In this document: piece after piece, positions 14,776-62,057 of the stretch
Layout: each line of letters opens with the position of its first letter
How positions within the stretch are numbered: the stretch's first letter is position 1
DNA from: Verrucomicrobiales bacterium
GTDB lineage: Bacteria; Verrucomicrobiota; Verrucomicrobiia; Limisphaerales; J093
Direction: 5' to 3'
Assembly (NCBI GenBank): GCA_015075445.1
Contig: JABTUJ010000003.1
Location: 248,001-312,000, forward strand
DNA: 64,000 nucleotides
Program-made: the position numbers and the translations under genes
The notes under the pieces: generated by a model
The model's input: only the letters and a program-made list of their open reading frames with translations
Database searches by the model: none
What the model was told of the DNA's origin: nothing

Positions 14776-14810
14776 GCGCCCCGCACGGGCTCAACCGAAA
14801 GGAATCGAGA

Positions 14811-15100: not shown

Positions 15101-15181
15101 AGCCGGGGCGCGAGACATTTCGGGTCGAGTCGCCCGCAGGTCCCTGCCGACCGGGCGCCCACGACTACAACGGAGCAATCC

Positions 15182-15673: not shown

Positions 15674-18240
15674 CCCGGCCAACCCGCAGCGGGTAGGCGG
15701 CTGTGCCACCAGCAGGCGCGCGCGGGTCGGCGACTTCCGCCACTACGCCTACGGCGACGCCTGACCTGCCATTTGAGGCCATCGACGTGAAAGTAATCCC
15801 GCCAACCCGCAGCGGGTGGGCGGCTGTGACTACGGGCCGGGCGGACGGTGGTCCTTGCGCGACTACGCCTACGGCGTCGTCGATGCCAGGGGACCTACGA
15901 CAGGCCGGTTTGCAGGTGATTGACGTGAGGACCGCCAATCCGCTGGCGGGTAGGCGGCTATCTTCCATGCATGCGCAGGATGGCGGTGCTCAGGCCACTA
16001 CGCCTGGCGCAGACATGGAGTGTCGACGTAGGTGACGACGTGAGCGATCCGGCCAACCTGCGGTGGGCCATGACACCAGCGGGCATGCGCAGGGGCGGAT
16101 GTCCAGGCCACTACGCTTGCGGTGGACACAAAGGCCGATTGCAGGTGATCAATGATCCGGGCCGTCACAGCGGGTGGGCAGCCATGACGAGCGCATCAGC
16201 GTTCGGCGTGGCGGTCTCGGCCACTACGCCTACGTGGCGGAGTGGGCGGATCGGCGGCTTGTGGTACTGGACCTGAGCAACTGGCCAACCTGCAACGGTG
16301 GAAGCCATGACCAGCGGGCCTGGTGCATGCCGTAAAGGTTCCGGCCGCTATGCCCGCGGCGGGCGCGCGGGGGCCGGTTTTGCAGGTGATCGGATGAGCA
16401 ACCCGGGCTAACTGGCAGCGGGTGGGCGGCTGGCGACACCAGCGGGAGGCGCGGGGCGTCGCAGTCCATGACTTTCGCCTACGGGCTGACGGCGCTGCCG
16501 GTTTGCAGGTGATTGACGTGAGCGATCCGGCCAATCCGCAGCGGGTGGCCGGCTATGACACCAGCGGGGGTGCGTCCAGCCTGGCGTTATCGGGCCACTA
16601 CGCCTACGTGGTGTTCTCGACTGTGGGGGGCGTGAGACAGTGGGCCGGTTTGCAGGTCATTGACGTGAGCGATCCGGCCAACCCGCAGCGGGTGGGCGGC
16701 TATCTCACCAGCGAGTCTGCGCGGGACGTGGCGGTCTCCGGCCACTACGCCTACGTGGCGGACGGAGAGGCCGGTTTGCAGGTGATTGACGTGAGCGACC
16801 CGGCCAACCCGCGGCGGGTGGGCGGCTATGACACCAGCGGGAGGCGCGGGCGGAGGGTTCTCGGCCACTACGCCTATGGGCTGGATGGAGAAGCTGGTTT
16901 GCAGGTGATTGACGTGGAAGGACCCGGCCCCACCCGCAGCGGTGGTGGCCGTGAGCAGCAGCGGTTAGCCCAGGGGCGGCGGGTCTCGGCCACTACGCCT
17001 ACGTGGCTGATGGGCTGCTGGTTTGCAGGTGATTGACGTGAGCAACTGGTCGCACCCGCAGCCAGGGCGCTATGGCACTATCGAAGGTAAGTGGTCGCGG
17101 TCTCCGGCCACTGCCACTTATGTGGCGGATGGGGTTCTCGGTCTGCAGGGTGATCGACGTGAGCAACCCGACCAACCCGCAGCGGGTGGGAGGCTGCGCA
17201 CCATCGCTGCACGTGGCGTGGCGGTCTTCAGCCACCACGCTTTACGGTGTGGAGGGAAAGGGGGTGGCCGGATTGGAGTGTTGCAGGTGATCGACGAGCG
17301 ACCCGGCCCACCCGTGCTGGGTGGAGGCTGCGCACCAGCGGCAAGGCGTGGGGCGTGGCGGTCTCGAACAACTACGCCTACGTGGCGGACGGTGAAGCCG
17401 GTTTGCAGGTGATCGACGTGAGCAACCCGGCCAACCCGCAGCGGGTCGGCGGCTACGACACCAGCGGGTATGCGCGTGACGTGGCGGTCTCAGGCAACTA
17501 CGCTTATGTGGCGGATGGGGATGCCGGTTTGCAGGTCATTGACGTGAGCAAGCCGGCCCACCCGCAGCCGGTGGGCGGCTATGACACCAGCGGGCTTGCG
17601 TGGGGCGTGGCGGTCTCGGACAACTACGCCTACGTGGCGGACGATGAAGCCGGTTTGCAGGTGATTGACGTGAGCGACCCGGCCCACCCGCAGCGGGTGG
17701 GAGGCTATGACACCGCCGGGAACGCGTATGGCGTGGCGGTCTCCGGCCACCACGCTTACGTGGCGTGGCATTCGTGCTTCCTGACTTGCTCGTGGGGTTT
17801 GGAGGTGATCGACGTGAGCAATCCGGCCAACCCACAGCGGGTGGGAGGCTATGACACCAGCGGGGTTGCGTGGGGCGTGGCGGTCTCCGGTCACTACGCC
17901 TACGTGGCGGATGCTTGGACCGGTTTGCAGGTGATCGACGTGAGCAATCCGGCCAACCCACAGCGGGTGGGCGGCTATGACACCGGCGGGGGAGCGGCTG
18001 GCGTGGCGGTCTCAGGCCACTGCGCCTACGTGGCGGCTTGGGAGACCGGTTTGCGGGTAATCGACGTTACCAACCCAGCCGGTCCACAGCCGGTGGGCGG
18101 CTGTGACACCAGCGGGTATGCGCAGGGCGTGGCGGTCTCCGGTCACTACGCCTACGTGGCGGATGATCGCGGCGGTTTGCAGGTGATCGATCTGAGCGAC
18201 CCGGCCAACCCGCGGCGGGTGGGCGGCAACTCGTCGTTCG
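15350..18240 (+). repeat. LVIVD coding repeat array, about 23 units of about 126 bp
   Basis: Each unit encodes about 42 residues: [20 protein letters not shown] then [20 protein letters not shown] count about 23 units from the recurring 'aacccgcagcgggtgggcgg' text. Units 1-2 and the last seven (from about 17370) read cleanly. The units between 15610 and 17360 contain one-base indels every few dozen bases and some larger gaps; one partly open stretch is 16422-17036. LVIVD repeats form beta-propeller-like surface domains. The clean flanks with an error-rich middle suggest unpolished repeat sequence more than ordinary decay. Confidence 0.8.
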
Positions 18241-18545
18241 ATGGGCAAGCGGTTTGCGTCGGTTCAGACCATGTGTTTGTTGCCGCGGGCCGCGATGGCC
18301 TGGTGATCCTGCACCCGTTCACGCCGCTGTCCGGCCCTCCGCTTTCCTTTGGGCAGGTGCGGACCGGTCCCACGGGGCTCGACCTGGTGCTCGAGGGACT
18401 GCCGGGGCTGCATGTGGACCTGGAGTGGAGCAGCGACCTGCACCACTGGCAAAGCTGGACCAACACCCTCCTGGGCACCGGTCCGGTGGGATTGACCGAT
18501 CCCGAGACCAACCCCCGGCAATTCTATCGCGCCATCGCCCGGTAA
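17247..18545 (+). CDS. LVIVD-repeat secreted protein, C-terminal part
   Basis: Open frame whose reliable part starts near 17350. It contains seven regular LVIVD units (for example [20 protein letters not shown]), one interrupted by an insert with two cysteines ([14 protein letters not shown]). It then has a divergent final unit and the shared C-terminal module ([20 protein letters not shown]...[17 protein letters not shown]). With 15182-15673 this would be one protein of about 1100 residues, secreted and propeller-like. Its function is unknown. Confidence 0.75.
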
Positions 18546-19480: not shown

Positions 19481-20242
19481 ATGTCATTGAAGCCCTCAGA
19501 AGACGACTCGAGGCTGAGCCATGACGGCACCGGCGCTCAGTTCCCCACCACCCATTGGAGCGTGGTGCTGACGGCGGGGGACAGCGCGTCGCCGGGATCG
19601 CAGGAAGCGCTCGGGAGACTCTGCCGTCAGTATTGGCTTCCGCTCTATGCGTTCGTCCGGCGCAAGGGGTACTCGCCCGAGGATGCGCGGGATCTGACGC
19701 AGTCGTTTTTCGCCGATTTCCTCGCGCGGCACGCGGTCGACCCGGCGGATCCGATTCGGGGTCGGTTTCGGACGTTCCTCCTGGCCTGTCTGCAGAACTT
19801 CCTCGGTCACCAACGAGATCGGGCCCTGGCACAGAAGCGGGGCGGCGCGACGCTCGTGGTGTTGGACCTGACCGACGCGGAGAAGCGCCATCGGGAGCAT
19901 GTCTTCGAGGGCGCCACCCCGGAAACGCTTTACGAGAAACAGTGGGCACTCAGCCTGCTCGAGTGCGCGCTGAACCGGTTGCGCGCGGATTTCCTCCACA
20001 CCGGCAGTGCGTTGCTCTTCGCGAAGCTCACCCCTCATCTCTGGCAGGACGAAGCGGCGGTTCCATATGAGCGCCTGGCGGCGGTCCATCAGGTGAGCGA
20101 AGGTGCCCTGCGCGCAACGGTTCACCGCCTCCGGCAGAAGTATCGCGAGATTCTCCGGGATGAGATCGCCCACACAGTGGCCCGTCCCGCTGAGGTGGAT
20201 GACGAGATCCGGCATCTGCGCCGAGTGCTGAGTGAACAGTAA
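19481..20242 (+). CDS. ECF-type RNA polymerase sigma factor, kinase-linked
   Basis: 253 residues; the start at 19481 gives MSLKPSEDDSRLSHDGTGAQ followed by the conserved FPTTHWSVVLTAGDS. Region 2 is RLCRQYWLPLYAFVRRKGYS with EDARDLTQSFFADFL; region 4 is YERLAAVHQVSEGALRATVHRLRQKYREIL. This is the planctomycete/verrucomicrobial ECF group whose genes sit next to Ser/Thr kinases. Here a kinase begins 48 bases downstream on the same strand. It is paralogous to the sigma factor at 31497-32249. A longer open frame upstream crosses the PIN remnant and is not credible. No separate anti-sigma gene is visible; regulation by the kinase is inferred from position and from what is known of this sigma group. 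Confidence 0.9.
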   Translation: MSLKPSEDDSRLSHDGTGAQFPTTHWSVVLTAGDSASPGSQEALGRLCRQYWLPLYAFVRRKGYSPEDARDLTQSFFADFLARHAVDPADPIRGRFRTFLLACLQNFLGHQRDRALAQKRGGATLVVLDLTDAEKRHREHVFEGATPETLYEKQWALSLLECALNRLRADFLHTGSALLFAKLTPHLWQDEAAVPYERLAAVHQVSEGALRATVHRLRQKYREILRDEIAHTVARPAEVDDEIRHLRRVLSEQ

Positions 20243-20289
20243 CAAACGTATGAACTCCCGTTAGACACGGGTGAAGGCAAGTCCGCCGC

Positions 20290-23200
20290 ATGGACGATAA
20301 GCCCCAATGCGCGAAGTGCGGGGCGCCGCTGGGCCGGGGCGTGTTTGCGGGGCTCTGTCCGGTTTGCATGCTCGAGGCCGGCTTGCCCCGAGACTTGGAT
20401 GGAGAACCCCAGGCCGCGCGCGCCGATGCCGCCCCCGGCAAGGGTCAGGGCTGGTCGCCGGGGCTCAGTCGCCAAGGCCGGTTTGGCGATTACGAATTGC
20501 TCGAGGAGATCGGTCACGGCGGCATGGGGGTCGTTTATCGGGCGCGACAGGTCAGCCTGGACCGCGAGGTGGCCGTCAAGTTCCTGCTCTTGGGAACCTT
20601 CTCGAGCGGTGACGTAACCGAGCGGTTCCGGCGTGAGGCCGTCACGGCGGGGAGCCTGCGGCACCCGAACATCGTGACGATCCACGAGGTGGGCGAGATC
20701 GAGGGCCAGCCGTTCTTCGCGATGGAGTACGTCAGGGGGTCGAGCCTGGCCGAGGTGATCGCCGGACGCCGGGGGCGCGGACTGGACTCCCGGCAGGCGG
20801 CCCAGTGGGTGAAAACCATCGCCGAGGCGATCCACTACGCCCACCAACAAGGGGTGCTCCACCGCGACCTTAAGCCCTCGAACATCCTGCTGGACGAGAC
20901 GGGCCAGGTGCGGATCACGGACTTTGGCCTGGCCAAACGACTGGCCGACCCTGTCCAGTTGACGGTGACCGGACAGACGTTGGGCTCACCCAGCCACCTG
21001 GCGCCGATATGGCCGCCATTGGGCATCGCCACCGTCCCCGTGGGTGATGATCTTACGCCCATCGGTCCCTTGTATGAACTGCTGACCGGCCGGCCGCCGT
21101 TCCTGAGCGAGTCCATCCAGGAAACCCTGATCCACATCCGGGAGCGGGAACCGGTGCCGCCCCGACTGCTCAACGCCGGCGTTCCGCGCGACCTCGAGGT
21201 CATCTGCCTCAAATGCCTCGAGAAAAGCCCCGAACGCCGGTTTGCGTCGGCAGAGGCGGTGGCGGAGGACCTGGGGCGTTACCTGCGCGGTGAACCGATC
21301 CAGGCGCGCCCGGTCGGGCTGTCCGGCAAGCTGTGGCGCTGGTGCAGACGGAAGCCGGCCTTGGCGTCGGCGGTGGGTGGCTTGATTCTTGTGCTTGCGA
21401 CCGGCTTCGCGGGTGTGCTGTCGCAGTGGCGCAGGGCCGAGCTCAATGCCGAGCAACACGCTCGCGAGGCCTCCTACTCGACGATTGCCCTGGCGGACTC
21501 GCAGATTCGCGAGGGCAACGTGGATCAGGCTCTCGAAGCGCTGCTCGAGTGCCCGGAAGAGTTTCGTAACTGGGATTGGGGCCATCTCATGTTTCGCTGT
21601 CACCAGGCCGTGTTGTCTCTAACGGCCCACACGAACGCACCGTCGAGTGAAAGGGGGAGAATGTCGAGCCGCAGACCGCCGGTTGCCGGGTTGAGTTTCA
21701 GTGGAGATGCCGCTCATCTGGTTACCGCGGGCTCAGATGGCACCCTCGGGTTCTGGTCGCTGGAGGAAGGACAATGCCTGGTGTCCGTCGGAACGCCCGA
21801 CGATCGGGTTCTGGCCTTCGCGGTGGCGCCGAACCGTCCCCGATGGGCGGTGGCCCGGGCAGCCGGAGAGATCGAGCTCTGGAACGGAGCGTCTGCGCAA
21901 GGGCGCATTCCCCTGAACGTTGCCGGGGCTCCCGTCCGACAGTTGGTCTTCAGCGCGGACGGCCAACGACTGGCCTGGGCGACTGAGCGTCAGATTGGCG
22001 TCTGGGATCTGGACCAGGGACGGGCCGTGCTCGAGGCCCGAGAGTTTCCCGAGTCGGTCGATTCGATTGCCTACAGCCCTCAGGGCCTGGTGGTACGGCA
22101 CGGTCTCGCGGTGGACCTGTTCGAGCTGGACACGGGTCGAAGAGTGCGGCGGCTTCAACTGCCGTCGGAAGAAGGCCGGGCCCGGTTCGTGCCTCCCCAG
22201 GCTGGCTACTCGGTCAGCCTCGATAGCCGAAATCGCCTGCGACTACACCCGGATGATTCCAACTCCCGGGATCTGGCGACCGTCACCGGGAGTCAGCCGG
22301 GTTTGCTGCGCCGGGTGTTCTTCAGTGCGGGTGGCCAGCGGTTCTGCAACGCCGGCGACCAGGGCACGGCCCGGGTCTGGGACGCCCCGACCGGAGCCGA
22401 GCTCTGGGTCGTGCCGGATCGGGTGCATCAGGCCGTGTTCAGTCCGGATGGCAACTCCCTCGCAACCTCGGGCGGCAGGAACCTCGTCCATGTCTGGGAT
22501 TTGGAAACCGGCAAGGAGGCGCTGACCTTGCGCGGGCATTCGGCGCTGATCGAGCGGTTGGCGTTCAGCCCCGACGGCCGGCTTCTGGCCACCGCCGATA
22601 CCGACGGCGCAGTCAAAGTGTGGAGCGCGGGCACGGGACGCGAGGTGTTGTCAGAGCGATCGTGCATGTGGGCTCCGGCGGTTACGCCGGACGGAAAGTT
22701 CATTTTTGGCGCGCCGTGGAATGACGAGTTCGTCATCTGGGACGCGGAAAGTGGTCAGCCAATCACAAGGGTACAAACGCCAACTCATCTGGTCGTCCGG
22801 GCGGCAATGTTTCCAGACGGACGCCGCGTCGTGACCGCCGGCAGCGAGAAGATCGCGCGGATATGGCAGATACCCACCGGTCGTCCCCTGCTGGTCCTTC
22901 GTGGGCACGAGCGGAGCCTTTGCGCGCTCGAGGTCAGCCCCACGGGAAAGCGCATCGCCACGGGGAGTTGGGACGGAACCGCCCGGATCTGGGACGCCGA
23001 CACGGGTGAATCGCTGTTCGTCCTCGACCACGGGACGAATCGTTTCGTGTGGACGTCGTTCAGTCCGGACGGACGGCGGTTGGCCACCGTTGACGAAGAT
23101 GCCATTTGGATTTGGGAGGTTGAATCGGGGCGTCGGCTCGCGCGTTATCAAACAGGCCAGTCTCGCCCCGATCGGGTCTTATGGTTCAAGGATGGCCGTC

Positions 23201-24315
23201 GGCTCCTGACCTGCAACCTGGATCGAAACATGGCCGTCTGGGACGCCAGGTCGGGCAAGGAGCTCAGGCGGTGGACGACACGGGGGGCTGCCGGTAATCC
23301 GTCGTTTTCCGCGGACGGCAAACGACTGGTGGCGGTCAGCGCCCGAGAATTTCTGTTCGGCTACGATGTCCCAAGTGCCGAGATCTGGGATCCGGAGACC
23401 GGGCGCCATTTGCTGACCCTGGCCGGGCATCGGGACCCGGCGAACAACGCGCGGTTCGCTCCGGCCGGAGCCAAGATCGTCAGCAGCTCATTCGACGCCA
23501 CCCTGCGGCAATGGGAAGCCTTCCCGTGGCGTGAGGCAGACTACCCGGACGCCGGCTCGAAGCCGTTCCGGGAGCGGATCGAGGCTTACAGCCGGGCGTA
23601 CTGGCAAGCCCGATTGACGGCCGAGGCCAGGGGACGACAACTGGCCAGCACGCGCCCGCTCGAGACGCAGTTCATCCGGGACACCACCCTCTGGCCGGCG
23701 CGTGACCGTCAAGCCGGACCCGACCAGGTGGACCTGGCTGACTTCTACAACGGGGTCTTGGATGCACCCTTCCATCCTTTCTACGCACCGGGGCAAACGG
23801 ACAACGATTTGGCGGAACTGCCCACGGGCACCGTCCAACTTGCCGGCGTCTGGTTCGACATTCGCGGCGTCATCCAGTTGCGGCGGGCCGAGCCCCTCGG
23901 CGGCTTCTGGCAGCTCAACTGGGAGCGCTACCCGGAGGCGGTCAACGGCATCCCGCTGAATCGTCGCGTGCGGCGCATCCATATCCTGCACGGAGCGACT
24001 GGCGCCATCGCCGACGGCGAACCGATCGGCGGAATGAGACTCCATTACGCCGATGGTGCCCAGGCCGAGTTCGATGTGGTCTATGGCCGCCACCTCCGCT
24101 CGTGGTGGACTCAGCCAGCACCCGAAGGCGACGTGTCCGATGGCAAACTTGCCTGGTCGGGTTCGAATCCGGTGGCCCAGGACCAGGGAGCCCGACTCCG
24201 GCTTTACGTCGTCGCCTTTGACAATCCACACCCCGATCTCGAGGTGACGACGCTCGATCTGCTCTCGCGCATGACCACGAGCGCCTGGTTCGTCATCGCC
24301 CTCACCGTGGAATAG
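20290..24315 (+). CDS. Membrane Ser/Thr protein kinase with WD40 propeller; altered activation segment
   Basis: 1341 residues. The N-terminal zinc ribbon is C7-x2-C10 and C23-x2-C26. The kinase domain (about 66-335) has GHGGMG (75-80), VAVK (Lys97), HRDLKPSN (191-198) and DFG (211-213). The activation segment is odd: where SPxYMAPE is expected it reads SPSHLAPIWPPLG, so Ile240 replaces the APE Glu, and the DVYSLG helix start reads DDLTPIGP. A single membrane helix (about 359-379, GGLILVLATGFAGVL) follows. Next is a long WD40 region (FSPDGRLLATADTDGAVKVW and many similar), then a C-terminal beta-rich domain (FDIRGVIQL...FDNPHPDLEV...FVIALTVE) shared with the kinase at 26611-31500. The kinase domain should be cytoplasmic and the WD40 part periplasmic. 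The odd segment could mean a pseudokinase or local sequence errors. Confidence 0.88.
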   Translation: MDDKPQCAKCGAPLGRGVFAGLCPVCMLEAGLPRDLDGEPQAARADAAPGKGQGWSPGLSRQGRFGDYELLEEIGHGGMGVVYRARQVSLDREVAVKFLLLGTFSSGDVTERFRREAVTAGSLRHPNIVTIHEVGEIEGQPFFAMEYVRGSSLAEVIAGRRGRGLDSRQAAQWVKTIAEAIHYAHQQGVLHRDLKPSNILLDETGQVRITDFGLAKRLADPVQLTVTGQTLGSPSHLAPIWPPLGIATVPVGDDLTPIGPLYELLTGRPPFLSESIQETLIHIREREPVPPRLLNAGVPRDLEVICLKCLEKSPERRFASAEAVAEDLGRYLRGEPIQARPVGLSGKLWRWCRRKPALASAVGGLILVLATGFAGVLSQWRRAELNAEQHAREASYSTIALADSQIREGNVDQALEALLECPEEFRNWDWGHLMFRCHQAVLSLTAHTNAPSSERGRMSSRRPPVAGLSFSGDAAHLVTAGSDGTLGFWSLEEGQCLVSVGTPDDRVLAFAVAPNRPRWAVARAAGEIELWNGASAQGRIPLNVAGAPVRQLVFSADGQRLAWATERQIGVWDLDQGRAVLEAREFPESVDSIAYSPQGLVVRHGLAVDLFELDTGRRVRRLQLPSEEGRARFVPPQAGYSVSLDSRNRLRLHPDDSNSRDLATVTGSQPGLLRRVFFSAGGQRFCNAGDQGTARVWDAPTGAELWVVPDRVHQAVFSPDGNSLATSGGRNLVHVWDLETGKEALTLRGHSALIERLAFSPDGRLLATADTDGAVKVWSAGTGREVLSERSCMWAPAVTPDGKFIFGAPWNDEFVIWDAESGQPITRVQTPTHLVVRAAMFPDGRRVVTAGSEKIARIWQIPTGRPLLVLRGHERSLCALEVSPTGKRIATGSWDGTARIWDADTGESLFVLDHGTNRFVWTSFSPDGRRLATVDEDAIWIWEVESGRRLARYQTGQSRPDRVLWFKDGRRLLTCNLDRNMAVWDARSGKELRRWTTRGAAGNPSFSADGKRLVAVSAREFLFGYDVPSAEIWDPETGRHLLTLAGHRDPANNARFAPAGAKIVSSSFDATLRQWEAFPWREADYPDAGSKPFRERIEAYSRAYWQARLTAEARGRQLASTRPLETQFIRDTTLWPARDRQAGPDQVDLADFYNGVLDAPFHPFYAPGQTDNDLAELPTGTVQLAGVWFDIRGVIQLRRAEPLGGFWQLNWERYPEAVNGIPLNRRVRRIHILHGATGAIADGEPIGGMRLHYADGAQAEFDVVYGRHLRSWWTQPAPEGDVSDGKLAWSGSNPVAQDQGARLRLYVVAFDNPHPDLEVTTLDLLSRMTTSAWFVIALTVE

Positions 24316-24374
24316 GGATCAGGCCATCGGATAGGAACTCCTTTGCCGCGTGTTTCTCCCGCGCCCGATTCGCG

Positions 24375-24593
24375 ATGACGTGGACTACGCGAACGTGGCC
24401 GAAGCTGGGCGGTGGGGACATCTTGCAGCACCTGCTCGAGCAACAGGGACCCACCGCGGCGGATCGATCGCGCATCCTCGGCGGCAGCCGAAATCTGGGC
24501 GCCATGATCCTGCGCGGAGAGCGAAGCCTCACCCTCCCCCACATCCGCAAGCTCGCCGCGCATTTCAAGGTCGGTCCGGAGGTGTTCTTCTGA
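24375..24593 (+). pseudogene. HigA-like antitoxin fragment
   Basis: 72 residues. From about residue 15 the text DILQHLLEQQGPTAADRSRI, with RNLGAMILRGERSLTLPHIRKL, matches the helix-turn-helix C-terminal half of HigA/XRE antitoxins. The usual N-terminal helical half is missing, and the first residues (MTWTTRTWPK) are unlike the family. No toxin gene is adjacent. It is probably a remnant, or a fragment reading from a later start. Confidence 0.65.
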
Positions 24594-24616
24594 GCGGGAT
24601 TCACGTCGTCCGGACG

Positions 24617-24704
24617 GAACCGCGAAATACGCCAAATACGCGAACGAGTGGGGGTGGTTGCCTCCACGGTTCTGTTCGCGTATTTGGCGTGTTTCGCGGT
24701 TTCC
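24617..24704. repeat. Intergenic hairpin element, CGCGAAATACGCC type
   Basis: aaccgcgaaatacgccaaat and its extension (24617-24645) pair with gttcgcgtatttggcgtgtt and its extension (24674-24704); the loop is about 28 bases. It has the same architecture as the CACGAAGG hairpins but a different arm sequence. It lies between the HigA fragment and the FG-GAP gene. Confidence 0.75.
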
Positions 24705-24790
24705 CTCGTTCAACTGTCACCTGCGTTGGCGATACTGTGTAACGCGCGGGGAATTCTCCGTTAGAACCGGGGTGAACAGCGCCATACACC

Positions 24791-26551
24791 ATGAAAACGC
24801 CCGCCCAAACTCACCGCTGGGTCGGCTCGCCCGACCTTGAGCACGATCCGAGATCGAGTCTTACCCCTCCCGTCGCGTGCGGTGGCCCCGGAGACCGGCT
24901 CCGAGGCTGGCGCGCGCTGGGCGGGCTCCTTGGGGTCATCCTGCTGCCACTGGCTTCTTGGGGCGAGGTGACCTTCACCCCGATCACCGAAGGACCGCTG
25001 GTCACCGAAAGTGGGACGTCAGGATTCGGCTCCTGGGGAGACTTCGACAACGATGGGTATCCCGACCTGGGCGTGCGGCGCGAGATACCGGGTACCGGTT
25101 GGCACGATACCTATGCCATCTACCGCAACAACGGCGACGGCACCTTCTCCCGCCTTCCTGACCCGCCCGGGTTGGCGGGCGCCTCCTACCAAGGTGTTGG
25201 CTGGTTCGACTGGGATAACGACGGCAATCAGGACGTCTGGGCGACGTCGGGTGGGGCGGAGTATCTCGCGTTCGGCGACGGTCACGGGGATTTCACTCTA
25301 GGCTCGGCCTCCGCGCTCATCGGATCCTGGGGCGCCCATGCCGACTATGACCGGGACGGTCTGCTGGACGTGTATTGGAGCTACCGTTCGGTAGGGAACT
25401 GCCTGATCCACAACCAAGGGAACCGAGAGTTCACCGTGTATCGGGGCCAGAGCGCGGGCCCCGCGAGCCTCTACACCTACGGCGGTTCGTGCGCGGGCGA
25501 CTTCGACGACGACGGCTGGCCGGATCTGTATGTGCCGTGCCTCAGGGATTCGCGCAGCTATCTGTTCCGGAACGATGGAAACGGCGGCTTCGTGGCGATG
25601 AACAACCTGATCACCCAAACCACCGGCCCCGCATTCCAAGCCGCCTGGGGCGACTACGACAACGACGGCCGGTTGGACCTGTTCGTGGCGCGCTGGAACG
25701 GCACCAGCGCCCTCTATCGGAACCTCGGCAATGGCGAGTTCGAGCGCCCGGCCAATGCACCCATCCTCACCGGCACGCACAATTTCGTGAGCTGGGTGGA
25801 CTACGACAACGACGGGTTCCTGGACCTGTGGGTGTCGGGTTACAGAAGCGGTAACAAGCTCTTGCGCAACAATGGCGACGGCACTTTCACACACATCACA
25901 GACGCACCCATCGTAACCGAACGGCCCCTGAACAACGCAGGCACCTACCAAGTAGCGTGGTTCGATTACGACAACGACGGGTTCCTGGACGCTTACGTCA
26001 TGCACGGGGATGATAACTCGAGCATCTGGACCGTCAACCAACTCTTCCGCAACAACGGCAACGACAATGCCTGGCTCACGGTGAGGCCCGTTGGCACTGT
26101 TTCGAACCGCGACGGCGCCGGCGCCAAGGTCCGGGCGTTGGCGACCTATGCCGGCCAGGCCCGCTGGCAACGACGCGACATCACCGTCGGTTGCCTCAGC
26201 GAGGGCAACCATCGTTACGCCCATTTCGGTCTCGGCGACGCCAGCAAGGTCGATACGCTCCGCCTCGAATGGCCCTCCGGCATCGTCCAGGAATTCCGGG
26301 ATGTACCGGCCAGGCAAATCCTAACCGTCACTGAACCGGCGCAGTTGGTGCCGCTCGGGCCGCGCGAGTTCCAGATCCGCTGCTGGAAAGGGATGCAATT
26401 CCAGGTCCAGAAGTCTCACAACCTTCAGGACTGGCTTTCCCTGGGGTTCGTGGTCAACCAGACTGGTACGCTGCTCTTCCAGGACACGCAGACCGAGCCG
26501 CAAGCCGCTCGTTGTTACTACCGGGTAATGTCGGCAGAGAACGGCAAGTGA
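24791..26551 (+). CDS. Secreted FG-GAP repeat protein with ASPIC/UnbV domain
   Basis: 586 residues. A long N-terminal region precedes a hydrophobic segment (GLLGVILLPLASWGE) that is probably the signal peptide core; a later alternative start is possible. Residues about 75-400 carry calcium-binding FG-GAP/VCBS blades (DFDNDGYPDL, DWDNDGNQDVW, DYDRDGLLDVYW, DYDNDGRLDLF, DYDNDGFLDLW, DYDNDGFLDAYV). These are followed by the ASPIC/UnbV domain (NQLFRNNGNDNAWLTVRPVG, HFGLGDASKVDTLRLEWPSG) and the shared C-terminal module ending ARCYYRVMSAENGK. It is a surface or periplasmic protein of the CRTAC/UnbV type. It lies between the two convergent sigma-kinase modules. A shortened paralog is at 7418-8194. 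Confidence 0.88.
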   Translation: MKTPAQTHRWVGSPDLEHDPRSSLTPPVACGGPGDRLRGWRALGGLLGVILLPLASWGEVTFTPITEGPLVTESGTSGFGSWGDFDNDGYPDLGVRREIPGTGWHDTYAIYRNNGDGTFSRLPDPPGLAGASYQGVGWFDWDNDGNQDVWATSGGAEYLAFGDGHGDFTLGSASALIGSWGAHADYDRDGLLDVYWSYRSVGNCLIHNQGNREFTVYRGQSAGPASLYTYGGSCAGDFDDDGWPDLYVPCLRDSRSYLFRNDGNGGFVAMNNLITQTTGPAFQAAWGDYDNDGRLDLFVARWNGTSALYRNLGNGEFERPANAPILTGTHNFVSWVDYDNDGFLDLWVSGYRSGNKLLRNNGDGTFTHITDAPIVTERPLNNAGTYQVAWFDYDNDGFLDAYVMHGDDNSSIWTVNQLFRNNGNDNAWLTVRPVGTVSNRDGAGAKVRALATYAGQARWQRRDITVGCLSEGNHRYAHFGLGDASKVDTLRLEWPSGIVQEFRDVPARQILTVTEPAQLVPLGPREFQIRCWKGMQFQVQKSHNLQDWLSLGFVVNQTGTLLFQDTQTEPQAARCYYRVMSAENGK

Positions 26552-26610
26552 CAGGGGAGGCAGGACCTCAGGCTGGGGGGAAGCGACTGTGGAAACAAGC
26601 GAGGGCCGGT

Positions 26611-29600
26611 TCAGTCCACCGTGATGGCCACGAGGAAGGGGCCGTGGCCAGGCTTGGGCGTTTCGAAATCGATGGCCTTCACCGGGACGTCAGGATGGGG
26701 ATTGGTCCAGGTCGAGCGGAAGAGCCGGACGGGGATGCCGGCCGGACTGGTTCCTTCCCACGCGACGACAAGCTCAGGCTGATCCCAGGAAGGGTGGCGG
26801 TCCCAGCGGGCAAGATCTAGGCCGACCGTGGCGGACCAGTCGACGCGCCGTCCGTTCTCGAGTCGGAGCCCGTAAATGGCGGCCTTCACGCCCGGGATGC
26901 CCCCCAGGGCAACGGCGTGGAGGAAGTGGATGCGCTGGCAGGGCCGACCCACGGGAATGCCACGAACCGCGTCCGGGTATTGCAGGTCCCGAGAGACGGA
27001 GTCGCCCCACGTGAGCTGGATCGCGCCCCGGACGTCGAACGCGATCCCAGCCAGATTCTGTTGGCCGCGCGGCAAGGTCGAGAGGTTGTGCCGGAGGCAC
27101 CGCATGCCGCGCCAATCGGTATCGAGGTTCACGTTGTAGAACGGGGACAGGTCGAGCAGGGCAGCCGGTGTCTGGGGGTCGCGGGGCGGCACCTGGATGT
27201 CATAGGCCAGGCGATGGTCGCGCAGGGCCTCGTCGACGTGCCCGAGGCGGCGCTGGATCCGCGCGCGGGCCAGGAGCGCCTGGCGTCGTTCCTTCGGGCT
27301 GAGCCTGGGTTTGAACCGGTCCGACTCCAACACCTCCGTGTAGACCCGCAGGGCGTCGGTTTCCTCAGCTCCTTGTTCGAGCCTGCCCGCGAGGGCAAGC
27401 ATCAACCGCGGGGTGGCCGTCTCGAGTTGTGCGGCGGCCGCCAGGGTCTGGAGCGCCGCGGCGGTGTTGCCGGTGGCGGTCTCACAGTCGGCCTGCGCCC
27501 ACCAGACGGCCGCCTCGGCGGGGGCCAATGCAACAGCACGACGGCTGAGCCATTCGGCCCGGGCGAGCGAGACGGGGTCGTTCCGAGTGCGATAGGTCTC
27601 GAGGGCCAGGCGTGCCGCGCGGGCGAACAACAAACCGTTCGCCGGCGACAGGGCCAGCAAGCGGGCCAGGTCCGGACACGCGGCGACAGAGCCCATCCTA
27701 GCTTCGTGCGACTGCCCGGCCACCGCGTCGGTGACCCGGAGGGAAGTGCACGGTCCGACGGCGCGATCCGCTCGGTCGGCCAGGAACCACGCCAGCCAGC
27801 CGGCACACGGGGCGGACGGCGGTTGGTCGGCGAGAACACGCTTGAGGCGAAGGAACGCCGTCGGCGGCACGAGCGCGGCAATGCGATCCTGATCGAACCG
27901 TTGTCCGGCGACCGCTTCGGCCAGGTCCGGCAACCAGTCCGGGATCGGGACGCCGACGGTGGGGACATCCCAGATCCACCCGCTGCGGTGCTGGCAGGCG
28001 GTGGCCAACTGGGTGCCATCGGGGCTAAACTCGGCGTGATTGACCTGGCGAGGATGCGGGAACGGACTGGCCAGGACCTGACCGGTAAGGCCATTCCAGA
28101 GCCGGGCGGTACCGTCCTCCGAGGTGGTGACCGCCCGTTCTCCGTTTGGGCAAAACCCCGCCCAGAGTACGGCGGCGACGTGCCGGAGCGGTTCGCCAAT
28201 GGGGGCACCCGAGTGCGCATTCCACAAGCGCGCGGTGTGATCCTTCGACGCTGTGATCAGGCGGGTGCCATCCGGGCTGAACGCAGCCTCGTTCACTTCC
28301 CCCCGGTGCAGCAACGGGGGCGTGACGGCCGCACCCGAGGCGCTGTCCCACACACGCGCGGTGCCATCGCGCGAGGCGGTGACGACGCGGGTGGCATCCG
28401 GGCTGAAGTGGGCGGCCTTCACCTCCTGGTCGTGGGCGTGCCACGGAGTGCTGAACCGGCTGTGGGTCAAGTCCCAGATCCGGATGGTCTGGGCGGCCTC
28501 GGTCAGAAGGTGGCGGCCGTCCAGGCTGAACTCGGCCCAGCGCACGAAGCTGGCTGCCTCGATGGGCAGGGACTGGAGGAGTTGACCAGTGCGGACATCC
28601 CAGAGAGCCGCGGTGCCGCCGTAGCCGGCGGTTAGGATCTGGTGTCCGTCGGGATGGAAGCAAGCCGAGCGTGCTCCCTGGCTGGTTGGGAGCGCCAGCA
28701 CACACTCCTCCCGCGTCAGGTCCCACACCAGAACATGGACATCCGTCGAACCGACCACCATCCGCTGGCTGTCCGGGCTGAACTGAGCGCAGGCCACGGG
28801 CCCACCGGCGTGGATGTGGAATTCGCGCGCCTGGGCGGTCGTGCTGTCGAAGAGGCGGGCCGACCAACTTCCCAGGACGACCCATCGTCCGTCGGGCGAC
28901 CAGTGAACAAAGCGGGGCTGACTGCCCACCCCCAGGTATCGGCGCAAGGCCTCCCCCGGCCGCACGTCCCAGACCTGGGCCGTCTGATCGGAAGAGGCGC
29001 TGACAACGTGTTGACCGTTCGGACTGAAGCGAGCCGACCAGACGGCGCCCTGGTGGCGCATGATCTCACCAGCCAACTGGCTGGTATGCGGGTCCCAGAG
29101 CCGCACTTGGTGATCTTCGCAGGCAGTCAAGAGGCGTTCGCCCTCCGGGCTGAACGCGACCGAGCGAACCGTGCCGCCGTGTGCGAGGGGCCGACCCCGC
29201 GGCGCGCCGGTCAGGCCGTCCCAGAGACGGACAGTCGCGTCAAACGAGGCGGTGGCGAGCAGGCAGCCATCCGGGCTGAAGGCCACGGCAACGACTTGGT
29301 TCTCGTGGTGCAGAGGTGCGCTGAGCGGTTCGCCGGTGTCAGCATTCCAGAGGCGGCCGGTGCCGTCTCGACTGGCAGTCGCGACGCGGTGGCCGTCGGG
29401 ACTGAACTGCCCGGCTTTGACCACACCGCCGTGCCGCAGCGGTTGGCCGACGGGCTCGCCGGTAGCCACCTCCCACACCTGAGCCGTCGCGTCATCGGCC
29501 CCGGTCAGCAACCGGGTCCCGTCGCGCGTGAATTCGACGAAGTTCACCCACGATCGGTGGTGAAACGGTGCGCGTAGCGGTTCGCCCGCGGGAAGGCGCC

Positions 29601-31500
29601 AGAGGCGCACACCCCCATCTCTCGAGGCGGTGGCCAGGAGGGTGCCGTCCGGACGGAACTGAACGACGGTGACCCAATCCGGGTGGGCGAGCCAGGGAGT
29701 GACCGGCTGGCCGGTGCGTGCATCCCAGACACGGGCGGCCTGATCCACCGAGCCGGAGGCCACCCACTGGCCGTCGGGGCTGAATCGGGCGACCACCGGT
29801 TTGAAGTTGCCCCGGAATTCGTCCAGGCCGGCGCGCTCGACCGCGGACGGGTCGTGTTGCAGCACGTGCCCGAGGAGGTTCCCGCTCCCCGCATCCCAGA
29901 GCCGGACGGCGTTGTCCATGCCGGCAGTCAGAAGCCGGGTGGCGTCGGGGCTGAATGCGGCATCGTGGACTTCGGCTGGATGGAGGAGCGGCTCGAGCAG
30001 CGGCAGCGGCCAGCTTCGGTGGGTGAGCTCGGCCAGGAGCCAGTTGGCCACCGTGCGGTTGGTCGGGTCTTGACGGAGCTTGGTCGCCAGCGAGGCCAGG
30101 CCGGCGGCGGCGTTCTGACCGGCGAACAGTTCCTGGGCACGCTGCAGTTCGAGGTGTTCGAGGATCTGTTCGGCATGATGGCGCTGGACGCGTTCCGCGG
30201 TGGCGCTGCGTCGGGCGCGCTGCCACTGGGTGAGGACGCCCATCAGGCCCAAGGCGAACACAAGCACGAGCGCGAAACCCATGGTCGCCAGCGCCGGTTT
30301 CCGCTGGCACCAGCGCCAGGCTTTGGCGACAGGCCCCGTGCGGCGGGCCTGGATCGGTTTTTCCTGCAGGAAACGATCCAGTTCATCGGCCAAGTCCCGG
30401 GCCGAGCGGTAGCGTCGTCCGGGGTCTTTCTCGAGGCACTTCAGCGTGATGGTTTCGAGATCGCGCGGGACGTGGGCATTCAGTTTTCGAAGGCTGGGGG
30501 GATCGTCCTGGATGACCTGCTGGAGCAGCATGCGCGCGTTGCCGCGGAACGGGAGTTCGCCGGTGAGCAACTGGAAGAGGACCGTGCCGAGCGAGTAGAG
30601 GTCGGTCCGCTGATCGGCCGTATGGGCCTCGCCGCGGGCCTGTTCGGGGCTCATGTAGGCGGGCGTGCCGAGCAGTTGACCGTCCAGCGTCAACGTCACC
30701 TCGCCCGCCTCCCGTCGGGCCAGGCCAAAGTCTGTCAGGTACGGTTCGCCGGCGGCATCGAGGAGGATGTTCTGCGGTTTGACATCGCGGTGGATGACGC
30801 CGGCCTCGTGGGCGTGGTGGAGGGCCCGGGCCAGCTTCGCCCCGAGGCGGGCGGCTTCGCGTGGGCTCAGGCGATGACCCGCGAGCCAGTCCGCCAGCGA
30901 GACCCCCGCGACGAAATCGCACACGATGTACGTCAGGTCGGCTTCCCGGCCGACCTCGTGCACGCTGATGATGTTCGGATGGCGCAGTGGCGCGGCGGCA
31001 CGGGCCTCGCGGAGGAACTGGTCGGCTTCGCCGGGTTCGAGCTGGCGGTGGCGGGGGATCTTGATGGCGACCCAGCGACCGAGGCGGGTGTCGCGCGCCT
31101 TCCAGACCGTGCCAAACGCGCCGGTGCCGAGCTTCCGAACGATCTGGAACTGACCGATCCGGTCCAGTGCCGCCGCCGCCTGGGATGCCGCCGTGTCGTC
31201 CACGACACTGAAGTCGGCCCCGCAGCAGTCGCAGTGGATGCGCGAGAGACGTGCTCCAGGCGCCCGTTCGACCAAGTGGCCGCAGTGCGGGCAACGTACG
31301 CTGAGGGCGGAGCCGGTGGGCGACGGGGGGTGCGTGGCGACCGGGCCCACCGGAGCGGACGCTTCGGCTGCGGGAGAATCCCCCTCCTCGGGCGGGGTCG
31401 TCAAACCGGCGGCCAGCAGGCAGGCGGTGCAGAGACCCAGGGGGGTGTCGGCGGGAATCCGGCGGCCGCAGACGGGACAGTGGCGCTCGGCGTCAGTCAT
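26611..31500 (-). CDS. Membrane Ser/Thr protein kinase with WD40 and TPR regions
   Basis: 1629 residues. There are two N-terminal zinc-ribbon-like segments (C8/C11 with C24/C27; C70/C73 with C90 and C92/C93). The kinase domain (about 115-385) is complete: GTGAFG (125-130), Lys147 in VAIK, HRDVKPQN (237-244), DFG from Asp257, SPEQA (284-288) and DLYSLG. A single membrane helix follows (about 410-430, MGFALVLVFALGLMGVL), then a long WD40 region (FSPDATRLLTAGMDNAVRLW and about a dozen more). A TPR-like helical stretch (LARAEWLSRRAVALAPAEAA) leads to the C-terminal beta-rich domain (FDVRGAIQLTW...TNPHPDVPV...FLVAITVD). The start overlaps the stop of the sigma factor gene by 4 bases, so the two are coupled. 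It is probably a transmembrane signalling kinase; its substrate is unknown. Confidence 0.92.
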   Translation of the reverse strand: MTDAERHCPVCGRRIPADTPLGLCTACLLAAGLTTPPEEGDSPAAEASAPVGPVATHPPSPTGSALSVRCPHCGHLVERAPGARLSRIHCDCCGADFSVVDDTAASQAAAALDRIGQFQIVRKLGTGAFGTVWKARDTRLGRWVAIKIPRHRQLEPGEADQFLREARAAAPLRHPNIISVHEVGREADLTYIVCDFVAGVSLADWLAGHRLSPREAARLGAKLARALHHAHEAGVIHRDVKPQNILLDAAGEPYLTDFGLARREAGEVTLTLDGQLLGTPAYMSPEQARGEAHTADQRTDLYSLGTVLFQLLTGELPFRGNARMLLQQVIQDDPPSLRKLNAHVPRDLETITLKCLEKDPGRRYRSARDLADELDRFLQEKPIQARRTGPVAKAWRWCQRKPALATMGFALVLVFALGLMGVLTQWQRARRSATAERVQRHHAEQILEHLELQRAQELFAGQNAAAGLASLATKLRQDPTNRTVANWLLAELTHRSWPLPLLEPLLHPAEVHDAAFSPDATRLLTAGMDNAVRLWDAGSGNLLGHVLQHDPSAVERAGLDEFRGNFKPVVARFSPDGQWVASGSVDQAARVWDARTGQPVTPWLAHPDWVTVVQFRPDGTLLATASRDGGVRLWRLPAGEPLRAPFHHRSWVNFVEFTRDGTRLLTGADDATAQVWEVATGEPVGQPLRHGGVVKAGQFSPDGHRVATASRDGTGRLWNADTGEPLSAPLHHENQVVAVAFSPDGCLLATASFDATVRLWDGLTGAPRGRPLAHGGTVRSVAFSPEGERLLTACEDHQVRLWDPHTSQLAGEIMRHQGAVWSARFSPNGQHVVSASSDQTAQVWDVRPGEALRRYLGVGSQPRFVHWSPDGRWVVLGSWSARLFDSTTAQAREFHIHAGGPVACAQFSPDSQRMVVGSTDVHVLVWDLTREECVLALPTSQGARSACFHPDGHQILTAGYGGTAALWDVRTGQLLQSLPIEAASFVRWAEFSLDGRHLLTEAAQTIRIWDLTHSRFSTPWHAHDQEVKAAHFSPDATRVVTASRDGTARVWDSASGAAVTPPLLHRGEVNEAAFSPDGTRLITASKDHTARLWNAHSGAPIGEPLRHVAAVLWAGFCPNGERAVTTSEDGTARLWNGLTGQVLASPFPHPRQVNHAEFSPDGTQLATACQHRSGWIWDVPTVGVPIPDWLPDLAEAVAGQRFDQDRIAALVPPTAFLRLKRVLADQPPSAPCAGWLAWFLADRADRAVGPCTSLRVTDAVAGQSHEARMGSVAACPDLARLLALSPANGLLFARAARLALETYRTRNDPVSLARAEWLSRRAVALAPAEAAVWWAQADCETATGNTAAALQTLAAAAQLETATPRLMLALAGRLEQGAEETDALRVYTEVLESDRFKPRLSPKERRQALLARARIQRRLGHVDEALRDHRLAYDIQVPPRDPQTPAALLDLSPFYNVNLDTDWRGMRCLRHNLSTLPRGQQNLAGIAFDVRGAIQLTWGDSVSRDLQYPDAVRGIPVGRPCQRIHFLHAVALGGIPGVKAAIYGLRLENGRRVDWSATVGLDLARWDRHPSWDQPELVVAWEGTSPAGIPVRLFRSTWTNPHPDVPVKAIDFETPKPGHGPFLVAITVD

Positions 31501-32249
31501 GGCGCTTGGATCTGGATCAGGTAGCGGAGCTCGTCATCCACGTCCTTCGGGTCCGCGACGGTGTCCGCAACCACCTGTCGGAGGGCGGCGCGGTAACGCC
31601 GGCGCAGGCGGGTGACGGCCATGCGCACAGCGGGCTCCGCCAGGCCCAGCTTTGCGCCCGCGTCGCGATAGGCCAGCCGCGGAGAGTCGCCCTGCAGGAA
31701 AGGATGCAGGTGCTGGAAAATCCGCGCGTGATGGGAGTGGAGGTAGTCCGCCTCGACCGCCCGCAAGGCCTGGGCGAGGACAGTCACGCCCCACTTTCGG
31801 TCGAAGAGAGTCTCGGGACTGAGTTCGGTGGCGGGTTCGGCCCAGAGCTGACGTTCCGCGCCGGCGGCGTCGAGGGGGAGGAACTGAGAACGGCCGCCTC
31901 GCTTCGCGGCACGGGCCAGATCGCGTTGCTGGGCGAGGTAGTTCTTGAGGCACCCGAGGAGAAAGGACCGGAAGCGGCCCAGGTCAGGTCTGGCTTTGTG
32001 GATGACCTGCCGTTCGAGCAGGTAGAGCAGGAAGCCTTGGATGAGGTCCTTCGCGTCTTCTGGCGGATAGCCGGCACGGCGGATGAACGCATAGAGCGGG
32101 AACCAGTAGGTCTGGCAGAGCCGCTCGAGGGCCTCCCGCGAGCCGGGGGCAGCACTGTCCCCCGCGGCGAGCACGGTGCTCCAGTGCGTGGTCGCGAATC
32201 GCGCGCCGGTTCGCGCGCCGGGCTCGTCGGTTGCGCCTTCGGGGGCCAT
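31497..32249 (-). CDS. ECF-type RNA polymerase sigma factor, kinase-linked
   Basis: 250 residues from ATG 32249 (MAPEGATDEPGARTG); an in-frame ATG at 32300 would add 17 residues that do not resemble the family. It has the conserved FATTHWSTVLAAGDSAAPGS, region 2 (YWFPLYAFIRRAGYPPEDAK) and region 4 (AYRDAGAKLGLAEPAVRMAV then TRLRRRYR). It is clearly homologous to the sigma factor at 19481-20242. Its stop overlaps the start of the kinase gene (ATGA). The coupling implies that the two products are needed together. Confidence 0.92.
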   Translation of the reverse strand: MAPEGATDEPGARTGARFATTHWSTVLAAGDSAAPGSREALERLCQTYWFPLYAFIRRAGYPPEDAKDLIQGFLLYLLERQVIHKARPDLGRFRSFLLGCLKNYLAQQRDLARAAKRGGRSQFLPLDAAGAERQLWAEPATELSPETLFDRKWGVTVLAQALRAVEADYLHSHHARIFQHLHPFLQGDSPRLAYRDAGAKLGLAEPAVRMAVTRLRRRYRAALRQVVADTVADPKDVDDELRYLIQIQAP

Positions 32250-32685: not shown

Positions 32686-35600
32686 TTACCACGCGCGCAC
32701 GCGGTAGAACGCGGCAGCCGACGTCGGCCGCTCCGTCTGCGGGTCCGTGAACGAGGCCACCCCGTTCACCCCGACGATGGGCCCGCCGATGACGGTCCAG
32801 TCGGCGTCCGGACTGAGTGACGAGGTTCGTTCGACGGCGTACGCCACACCGGGCGAGGTCGCCCATTCCAGCGTGAGCGGTGTCAGGCGGATGAGGCGCA
32901 GCAGGACGAGGACGTGGACGTGAAGGTCCGGTGCACCGGGTGCGCCTTCGCGATTTCCGACCGCATCCACGGCCGTCGAAAAGAAGGCGAGGCTCGAGCC
33001 GGGCAGGGCAGGGAAGATGGCTGCTGTCTCGGTCGTGCCCTGTTTCCAATAGGCGTAGCGTCCGCCGTTCTGGGAGACGAAGACGTCGTAGGCGGCGATC
33101 CCGGAGCCGTCGCCGTCGCTGCCGGACCACGCGAGCCACAAACCACCCTCGTACGTGCCCAGCAGATGAACCCGGCTTTCGGGCGGGGTAGCATCCAACC
33201 GGTTGACGGCAACGGGCGTCACGATGGGGGCGTTCACATCGAACACGATGGAGGCCTGATTGGTGAGCGTGGTTCCGGGCGGTGCGGTCGCCCGAGGCAG
33301 GACGCTGAAGCTCACGAAGCCCTCGCCCCGGTGGTGCGGGTCGTTCGGGGGCAGGAAGCCCGCGAAGGGATCCTCGGGCAGCCACCCGGTGACCGGGTCC
33401 ACCGATTGCAGGCGCCAGGTCACCACACCGGTCTTCAGGTCCAGCGCGACGGAGGCGAGCACGGGGTTCGGGTCCGAGCTGACGTAGGCGACCCCCGCGT
33501 ATTGCTGCACGTCCGCCGGCACGTCGAGGACGGCGTCGTTGAAGGCGAACTGCAGCGGCCGGAAGGTGGACCAGTCGAGGTTCGGATCCAGCGGATCGGT
33601 GATGATGACCTCCTGGGCGGCGGCACTGGCCGAGGCGACGTTCTCGAAATGGATGGTGTAACGGATCGCCTCGCCGGCGCGCACGAAGCCCGCGGGGCCG
33701 GAGCCCGTGGTCACCTTCTCGTTGGGATCGAACGACTGCATGACCGGTGCCAGGCCGAAGCCGTCGGGCGGGCAAGCGAGCGCCCCGGCTCCGCCCGCGG
33801 GCGCGGCGTGGAGACCGCGCAACCCTCCCACGGCACACGGCGGTGGGGGTGGTTCATCCGGCACGCCGCCACCTCCGCAACCCTTCCCCCGTCCGACCAT
33901 GCGCGGGAAATCCTCGTTGAACATCAGGGCGCCCGACTGGTACCTCCCGACGGCCTCGAGCAATCCTGAGTATGCGTTGTCGAATTCCTCGTCGAGATCC
34001 TGGAGGCGTTGGAGCTTCGCCCGTGTTTCGGGCAACACGCTGTTCTGGAACCGGCTGATCGTGGACAGCGCCGCCGCGGTGCAGGGGCCGACGTCCGTTC
34101 CTCGGAAGTACGCTTCAAGGTCGCCGAGCTGGCTGTCCATCTCCTCGAGGTTCCACTCGAGGCGGAAGTTGCCGCGGTAGAGCTTCAAGAGCGTCTCGAC
34201 CCCGTAGTCCTGCAGGGACTGGATCGCGGGCCTGACGGGGTCGGAATCCGGGAGCGCGCAATCGGCGAGGATGCCGTTCAAGGCGGCGTAGAGGTCGGTG
34301 GGCAGATCGGCGACGCCGCTGAAGGCGCGTTCGAGCGGCAGGTAGGAATCGTCCTCGAAGGCGTCGAGCAGGTCCTCGACGCGATCCTGCACGTCTTCGA
34401 TGGACTCCCGCATCAACTGGAGGTCGGCGATGACCTTGTCGCTGTTCAGGTCCACGCACTTGCGCTTCATCTTCCCGAACGCCTCCAAGGCGGCGTCGAG
34501 CATGGCCTGATCCTTGTTCAGCTCTGGCGTCATCCAATGCGCCGTGTAGAGCGTCGGCGGGTAGGTGTACATCTCCGACGGGAGGTAGTTGAGCCACGGA
34601 CGTGTGGCGTTCGCTCCACCAGGCTGCTGCAAGCGCGGTTGCCGGTCGGCCAAGGCGATCAAGGCACCTTCGAGCTCGGCCGGTGGCGTCACCAGCGGGG
34701 GAGCGTCGCCCGGTAAGAGTTGGATCGCGACGGGGGTCGGCGCGTCCGGTGTGGTGGTGATGCTGACCACCACAGGGAGAAAGCCGGGGGCCCAGGCCAC
34801 GAGCCGGCTCGTGCCGGCCGGGGCCTCGCTGTCGCTGAAGCCGCCCGAGGCATCCGTTCGGTGCAGCCGTTCCCGCGGCAGCAGCGCGCCGACCACAACC
34901 AAGGCGTTGCTGATCGCCGCGCCGGTGGTGGCATTCACGACCTGGCCGCTGAGCGGTGACCCTGGGGGGAGAACGAAGTCCAGCGCAGCCGAGTCGCCTT
35001 CGTTCGGAAGCGAGGCGACGGCGCTGGTCGGACCGCCCCGATCGACAGCCATTGCCGATATCTGATACGTGCCGGCCGGCAGGCCGGAAACCGCGTAGCC
35101 TCCGTCCGCGCCGGTCGTGACGCGCGTTGGGGTCCGGAGGGCGTACGGGTGGCCCGGGTCGCTGGCCCGGACCACCACAATCGCGCCCGGAACGGTCCGG
35201 CCTTGGGCATCGCGCACGATGCCAGCGAGCGAACCGCCCTGGCCCGGGAGCGCGAAGGAGACCCAGGCCACGCCGCCCTCGGTCAGGGTCACGGCCTGCG
35301 ACGGTAACGGCAGCCGCCCGGTTGCGCTCGCGGAGAGGACATAACTGCCGGGATCGAGATCCGTGAACTCGAAACGCCCGTCCGCATCGGATGCGGTGCG
35401 ACGGACTTGTGCCGAGGCGGTGTGCTCCACCTGGATGGCGGCGCCGGCGAATGGCCTACCGCCCAGCCCGTCGCTCACTTCGCCCCGGAGGTTCCCCGTC
35501 GGTCCGGACACCACCAGGACGAGATTGGTCAACGCGGGCGCCGACGCCTCCGGCACCACCACCCCGGGCAGTCGGCCGGACGCGTAGCCGGCCACTGACA

Positions 35601-62041: not shown

Positions 62042-62057
62042 GCCCTCACCTGAAGCC

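Follow-up and report, generated by a model that had tools for sequence, protein, structure and literature searches.

The window analysed here, a stretch of 64,000 nucleotides from an 8.2 Mb draft genome (87% complete, 100 contigs), contains two gene pairs, each made of a sigma factor gene and a gene for a large kinase, which converge on a gene for an FG-GAP/UnbV_ASPIC protein. This arrangement raises the question of whether one sigma-kinase unit was duplicated, giving an envelope-sensing system around that protein as the first-pass annotation proposed (redundant or with cross-talk between the modules), or whether the two pairs work separately, and what they would respond to. The reading that we prefer, with a probability of about 0.72, is that the pairs are two ECF sigma switches, each controlled by its own kinase and independent of the other, and that both belong to a large, divergent family of paralogs.

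Anatomy of the two convergent modules

We call the plus-strand pair module A (sigA and kinA) and the minus-strand pair module B (sigB and kinB); their parts are listed in Table 1. The coordinates of both pairs were checked in the sequence and all of them hold. The gene sigA starts with an ATG and stops with a TAA, and the gap between it and the ATG of kinA is 47 bases rather than the 48 reported before. The 4-base overlap reported for module B stood, the TGA of sigB and the ATG of kinB sharing the ATGA at 31500-31497 of the minus strand.

Table 1. Positions of the two sigma-kinase modules, their parts and the gene between them (positions in the window; residues counted in each protein).
Feature	Position	Strand	Details
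sigA, ECF-type sigma factor	19481..20242	+	253 aa
sigA parts			sigma2 ~26-118, sigma4 ~147-230; N-terminal FxTTxWS signature; sigma2.2 motif DARDLTQ
kinA, Hanks-type Ser/Thr kinase-TM-WD40-C-terminal beta domain	20290..24315	+	1341 aa
kinA zinc-ribbon-like motif	20308..20367	+	CxxC...CxxC, residues 7-26
kinA Pkinase	20491..21264	+	residues 68-325; AVK, HRD, DFG kept; Pfam
kinA activation segment/P+1 loop	21007..21080	+	apparently out of frame: -1 at 21007, +1 at 21033
kinA transmembrane helix	21364..21432	+	residues 359-381; hydropathy
kinA WD40 beta-propeller region	21787..23499	+	approximate
kinA C-terminal beta-sandwich domain	23752..24312	+	
FG-GAP/UnbV_ASPIC protein	24791..26551	+	586 aa; N-terminal hydrophobic segment; same strand as module A
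kinB, Hanks-type Ser/Thr kinase-TM-WD40-TPR-like-C-terminal beta domain	26611..31500	-	1629 aa
kinB C-terminal beta-sandwich domain	26614..27180	-	modelled, pLDDT 86
kinB WD40 beta-propeller region	27961..29985	-	approximate
kinB transmembrane helix	30220..30288	-	residues 405-427; hydropathy
kinB Pkinase	30406..31149	-	residues 118-365; Pfam
kinB zinc-ribbon-like motif 2	31222..31293	-	residues 70-93
kinB zinc-ribbon-like motif 1	31420..31479	-	residues 8-27
sigB, ECF-type sigma factor	31497..32249	-	250 aa; sigma2.2 motif DAKDLIQ

Both kinases matched the Pfam families Pkinase (E 1.4e-42 in kinA and 4.3e-49 in kinB) and WD40 (E 1e-42 and 7.9e-107), hydropathy gave exactly one membrane helix in each, and both end in a homologous beta domain of around 180 residues. 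CxxC pairs give kinA a single zinc-ribbon-like motif, whereas kinB has two, and none of the three passed a Pfam cut-off. This is the anatomy that had been read from the sequence before. kinB is 288 aa longer than kinA and has a stretch of its own, weakly TPR-like, between the WD40 region and the C-terminal domain. A cytoplasmic kinase, one membrane helix and periplasmic WD40 arrays, together with a lineage-specific expansion, are also known from the WD40-bearing transmembrane Ser/Thr kinases of Planctomycetota (for example Ca. Uabimicrobium and Gemmataceae; PMC11032199). To that plan the present modules add an adjacent sigma factor, zinc-ribbon-like N-termini and a glycosidase-type C-terminal beta domain that is not in Pfam.

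Regarding the sigma factors, sigA and sigB scored below the cut-offs of Pfam PF04542 (19.3 and 14.1 against 24 bits) and NCBIfam TIGR02937 (28.6 and 27.9 against 42.9 bits). These scores reflect divergence and not an absent fold, the cut-off being a library threshold and not a biological criterion. The profile of the family matches SigE of M. tuberculosis (E 2.8e-6), and among 65 family members 60 matched Sigma70_r2 and 28 matched Sigma70_r4_2 (E<=0.01). The AlphaFold2 model of sigA, built from the 65-row alignment, had a pLDDT of 84, and a Foldseek search of the PDB with it gave ECF sigma factors as leading matches (region 2 of E. coli sigmaE, target-normalised TM 0.73). Profile, fold and family evidence together identify sigA and sigB as ECF (group 4) sigma factors with sigma2 and sigma4 only, which carry in addition the signature F-x-x-T-x-W-[ST] at the N-terminus and a further helix at the C-terminus.

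Family membership and origin of the two modules

Around 27 sigma genes of this family are present in the genome, at least 20 of which adjoin a kinase gene, together with some 50 Pkinase genes. The sigma relatives that bear names are mostly from Verrucomicrobia, including records of subdivision 3, Limisphaerales and Pedosphaerales. At 64 of the 78 informative named loci of Verrucomicrobiota, Planctomycetota and Acidobacteriota a kinase lies within 1 kb of the sigma gene, always on the same strand (64/64) and in 53 cases downstream, whereas the sigma genes of the remaining 14 loci have no adjacent kinase. Both modules therefore belong to a known kind, an ECF sigma factor encoded with its Ser/Thr kinase, and the earlier statement that ECF sigma factors linked to a transmembrane WD40 sensor kinase are an established arrangement agrees with the literature as well as with these loci. 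Since the family is so expanded, two pairs side by side are not in themselves the sign of a special system.

Within a pair the two partners are coupled, yet not rigidly, and reshuffling happens at times. Sigma and kinase distances were correlated across genomes (Mantel r 0.22, p 2e-4, n=108), and more weakly within the source genome (r 0.16, p 0.07); shared species history may contribute to the correlation across genomes.

Some of the sigma genes without a kinase have other neighbours. Three of them (L134:2222-3091, L148:2723-3634 and L160:2826-3401) are each followed by a prepilin-like gene (for example with RCPxDKST), which suggests that partners or targets of another kind exist. Another (L119:2066-3652) is closely followed by a different sigma-70-like gene (MSEDRQWLAEFARTGSEAAFRQIAGRH...), possibly a sigma-sigma tandem. 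Elsewhere in the source genome, on contig C8 (46500-66000, locus L081 of G000), three family sigma genes lie within 15 kb, one of them matching only partly, and the third adjoins a kinase gene whose coding sequence is spread across several frames.

We then come to the claim of a duplicated system. Modules A and B lie within 13 kb of each other and share family, domain order and C-terminal domain, as a duplication of one unit would have it. Nevertheless, the identity between them (46-47% for the sigma factors and 42% for the kinases) is ordinary for the family. The closest relative of sigA in the genome is encoded on contig C31 (50%, marginally above sigB with 49% in that comparison), and the search of the same genus and of other relatives gave no ortholog above 54%. 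Among 108 sigma-kinase pairs, taken from the source genome and from others, sigB ranked 38th in identity from sigA and sigA 3rd from sigB; among 107 kinases kinB ranked 50th from kinA and kinA 43rd from kinB.

The phylogeny of both halves, which had been proposed as a check, spoke clearly for the kinases only. kinA groups with the kinases of L129, from the same order, and of L203, from a different Verrucomicrobiota genome, with support of 100/98, and a constrained kinA+kinB clade was rejected (p-AU 0.012). sigA joins L129, L203 and also L112 with weaker support (97/77), while kinB and sigB are placed elsewhere on long branches. A sigA+sigB clade was neither recovered nor rejected (p-AU 0.289), the sigma tree having low resolution, so that on the sigma side a duplication is formally still allowed. 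Close sigma pairs are commoner than expected, with 5 pairs within 15 kb against 1.28 under random placement of the 27 genes (P 0.012), which also favours duplication. Nevertheless, at least one such pair occurred in 73% of the random placements (P 0.73), and therefore one close pair in the genome is unsurprising. The C-terminal domain is no sign of a unit duplication either, because it is shuffled, being present in some kinases only and also on unrelated proteins. We also found no promoter dyad common to both modules. Thus, the duplication of one unit is largely refuted and we consider it very improbable: as far as the sequences tell, A and B are old paralogs among dozens that are equally distant, and no recent unit duplication joined them. 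Given the grouping with L129 and L203, module A appears to predate the split of these lineages, and A and B appear to have become neighbours separately.

The protein encoded between the modules, which is likely secreted judging from its N-terminal hydrophobic segment, does carry the expected domains (FG-GAP_3, E 8.1e-48; UnbV_ASPIC, E 7e-14) and does lie where it was described. As a constant partner it failed: an FG-GAP-like protein was near only 2 other sigma loci among around 108 examined, plus 1 more weakly similar, and the genome has 52 ASPIC matches, for which reasons we rejected it as an obligate part of the module. The window itself has two UnbV_ASPIC proteins, the other one being encoded at 7181-8194.

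Joint control of the nearby surface-protein genes, which had also been suggested, gave no signal. Shared dyads of the -35/-10 type upstream of sigA, sigB and the FG-GAP, surface-protein and TonB genes were not above those of shuffled sequences. A GAAC...GTC-like site occurred only once among the scanned upstream regions, 5' of sigA; a scan for housekeeping promoters and terminators was at chance level; and the comparison by eye of the region upstream of sigA with those of L129, L203 and L110 gave no evident footprint. Upstream of sigB-kinB by 436 bases, on the same strand, there is a gene for a surface-type protein of 2535 aa (32686-40293, minus strand) with CarboxypepD_reg repeats and DUF7619, a position that would permit co-regulation with sigB-kinB. 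The surface proteins are accompanied by TonB-dependent receptors (48655-50874, plus strand; 58706-62092, minus strand) and by a BspA-type leucine-rich-repeat protein (9065-11560). Three consecutive open reading frames in different frames (14726-15673, 16422-17036 and 17247-18545) all have LVIVD repeats, as if frameshifts had broken up one or two propeller genes.

Control of the sigma factors by their kinases

The closest characterised pairs are those of group ECF43, namely EcfP-PknT of Vibrio and EcfK-PknS of Xanthomonas, in which the linked kinase activates the sigma factor by phosphorylating a Thr that replaces the core-binding DAED (PMC8999054, PMC13147305); in EcfK a linker Thr is phosphorylated too (PMC13147305). 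The present modules resemble them in that an ECF sigma factor lies beside a Hanks-type kinase, PknS being transmembrane, and no adjacent anti-sigma gene was seen. However, where ECF43 has STTA for DAED, the family of sigA and sigB keeps DAxD, and the STTA motif is absent. The acidic positions of sigma2.2 are retained in 127/140 (D/E68) and 138/140 (D71) of the family sigma factors; the third position is Q in 76, E in 46, R in 8 and K in 7, the motif being DARD in sigA and DAKD in sigB. The FxTTxWS N-terminus is another difference from ECF43. Because D68 and D71 are retained, the ECF43 mechanism is not directly transferable. Groups ECF59, ECF61, ECF62 and ECF217, mostly planctomycetal and compared here by their description in a review (PMC8999054), are alike in their kinase linkage, in overlapping phyla and in keeping the acidic motif or a similar one.

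Several Ser/Thr positions are conserved among the 140 sigma factors: T24 in 140/140, [ST]27 in 98%, [ST]146 of the linker in 74% and T232 in 99%. T73, beside sigma2.2, is conserved in 89% of the family and is Ile in sigB. None of positions 70, 73, 127 and 146 separates kinase-linked from kinase-less sigma factors (all p > 0.07). T24 would be the obvious phosphosite, although in the model of sigA it stands where the first helix of sigma2 begins and may be a helix cap, and we downgraded it.

According to the switch that we propose, the kinase would be anchored in the inner membrane, its catalytic domain facing the cytoplasm and its WD40 propeller and C-terminal beta-sandwich lying outside, where the binding of a ligand would activate it. 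The kinase would then phosphorylate the co-encoded sigma factor, as we infer from the strict co-direction of the genes and from the characterised ECF43 pairs, and the phosphorylated sigma factor would bind core RNA polymerase and transcribe a small regulon, to which its own operon may belong. With D68 and D71 kept, phosphorylation would not act, as it does in ECF43, by just making up for a missing DAED charge, and the phosphosite would more likely be a Ser/Thr conserved within the N-terminal motif, in the sigma2-sigma4 linker ([ST]146) or beside sigma2.2.

A sigma factor that keeps D68 and D71 for core binding may also be intrinsically active and need restraint. The kinases could in that case be scaffolds similar to anti-sigma factors, with the zinc-ribbon N-terminus tethering the sigma factor to the membrane, a signal releasing it and phosphorylation being secondary. 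The CxxC motifs at the start of both kinases fit with this, as does kinA, whose activation segment is scrambled while its frame of 1341 codons stays open. However, the zinc ribbons are below every Pfam cut-off, the catalytic motifs are intact in kinB (all of them, including MSPE and DLYSLG) and in almost all the kinase paralogs, and the characterised linked kinases work through activating phosphorylation (PMC8999054, PMC13147305). Therefore, we take such scaffolds to be improbable.

The activation segment of kinA reads GSPSHLAPIWPPLGIATVPVGDDLTPIG, where its relatives have GSPxYxxPEQAxG...SDxYxLG. A frameshift-aware alignment of kinA against 47 relatives called a -1 and a +1 shift around this segment, and these shifts were found in kinA only among 14 kinases tested (0/13 of the others). 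kinA lacks the APE glutamate and the DxYxxG motif, with DDLTPIG in that place, whereas the catalytic lysine, HRD and DFG are retained. kinA may thus be inactive or losing its kinase function, or the draft may contain base errors (mis-assembly), and module A may be impaired, its activation segment being out of frame as assembled. If the two shifts are compensating indels, module A would be decaying and its sigma factor would now be uncoupled from kinase control. Their restriction to kinA, the loss of both motifs and, elsewhere in the genome, the split kinase frames of cluster C8 are in favour. Nevertheless, base errors are possible in a draft of this completeness and number of contigs, and the rest of the kinA frame, HRD and DFG included, is intact; we regard decay as unlikely.

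The C-terminal beta domain as a candidate sensor

Regarding the signal, the domain at the C-terminus of the kinases matched nothing in Pfam or NCBIfam, and by sequence no solved structure could be related to it with confidence. Its AlphaFold2 model is mostly beta (pLDDT 86, pTM 0.85) and among solved folds comes closest to AziU3/U2 (TM around 0.6), not to a carbohydrate-binding module. We found the domain in 73 of the 146 relatives searched, and in 24 of the 24 proteins examined it lies at the C-terminus; these were kinases, AAA_35 fusions and secreted-looking proteins without assigned function. Other classes of Verrucomicrobiota have up to 23 copies per genome. Seven examined proteins from these classes (among L301-L310) have a match of the GH2 or GH42 type with the beta domain downstream of the catalytic part, while L304 is another kinase-WD40 protein with the domain. 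A profile built from the kinase-attached copies only finds the glycosidase copies with E 6e-21 to 3e-34 and had no match among reversed sequences used as a control, and in the alignment the kinase and glycosidase domains share the motifs YADG, DWW and NPxP.

By these sequence comparisons the C-terminal domain of the kinases and the accessory modules found on secreted GH2/GH42-type glycosidases of Verrucomicrobiota are homologs, attached to a kinase receptor in the one case and to an enzyme in the other. This homology supports an extracytoplasmic C-terminus of the kinases, and it suggests that the beta domain may recognise a glycan, the ligand sensed by the kinases being most likely a carbohydrate or a glycan-bearing surface. 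An enzyme module could thus have been recruited as an outer sensor, through which a glycan outside would switch on the sigma factor by way of a phosphosite other than the STTA position of ECF43. The logic of this glycan-to-sigma phospho-switch would be parallel to that of SusR/HTCS and FecI-FecR-type systems, with no kinship to them. We consider this last step tentative, a possible but rather unlikely extension of the independent switches proposed above.

The glycosidase-type sensor domain and the defect in the activation segment of kinA are what is new here. Sigma-kinase pairs such as A and B form an expanded and fast-diverging regulatory family in Verrucomicrobiota, with around 27 sigma factors in one genome, and on this family one could test how ECF sigma factors with intact acidic core-binding residues are controlled by linked kinases. 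The retained acidic residues of sigma2.2 and the glycosidase-type sensor domain are the parts worth following. The beta domain is a new lead, open to testing, on the ligands of bacterial WD40 kinases: being common to kinases and glycosidases, it would tell the class of ligand of such kinases.
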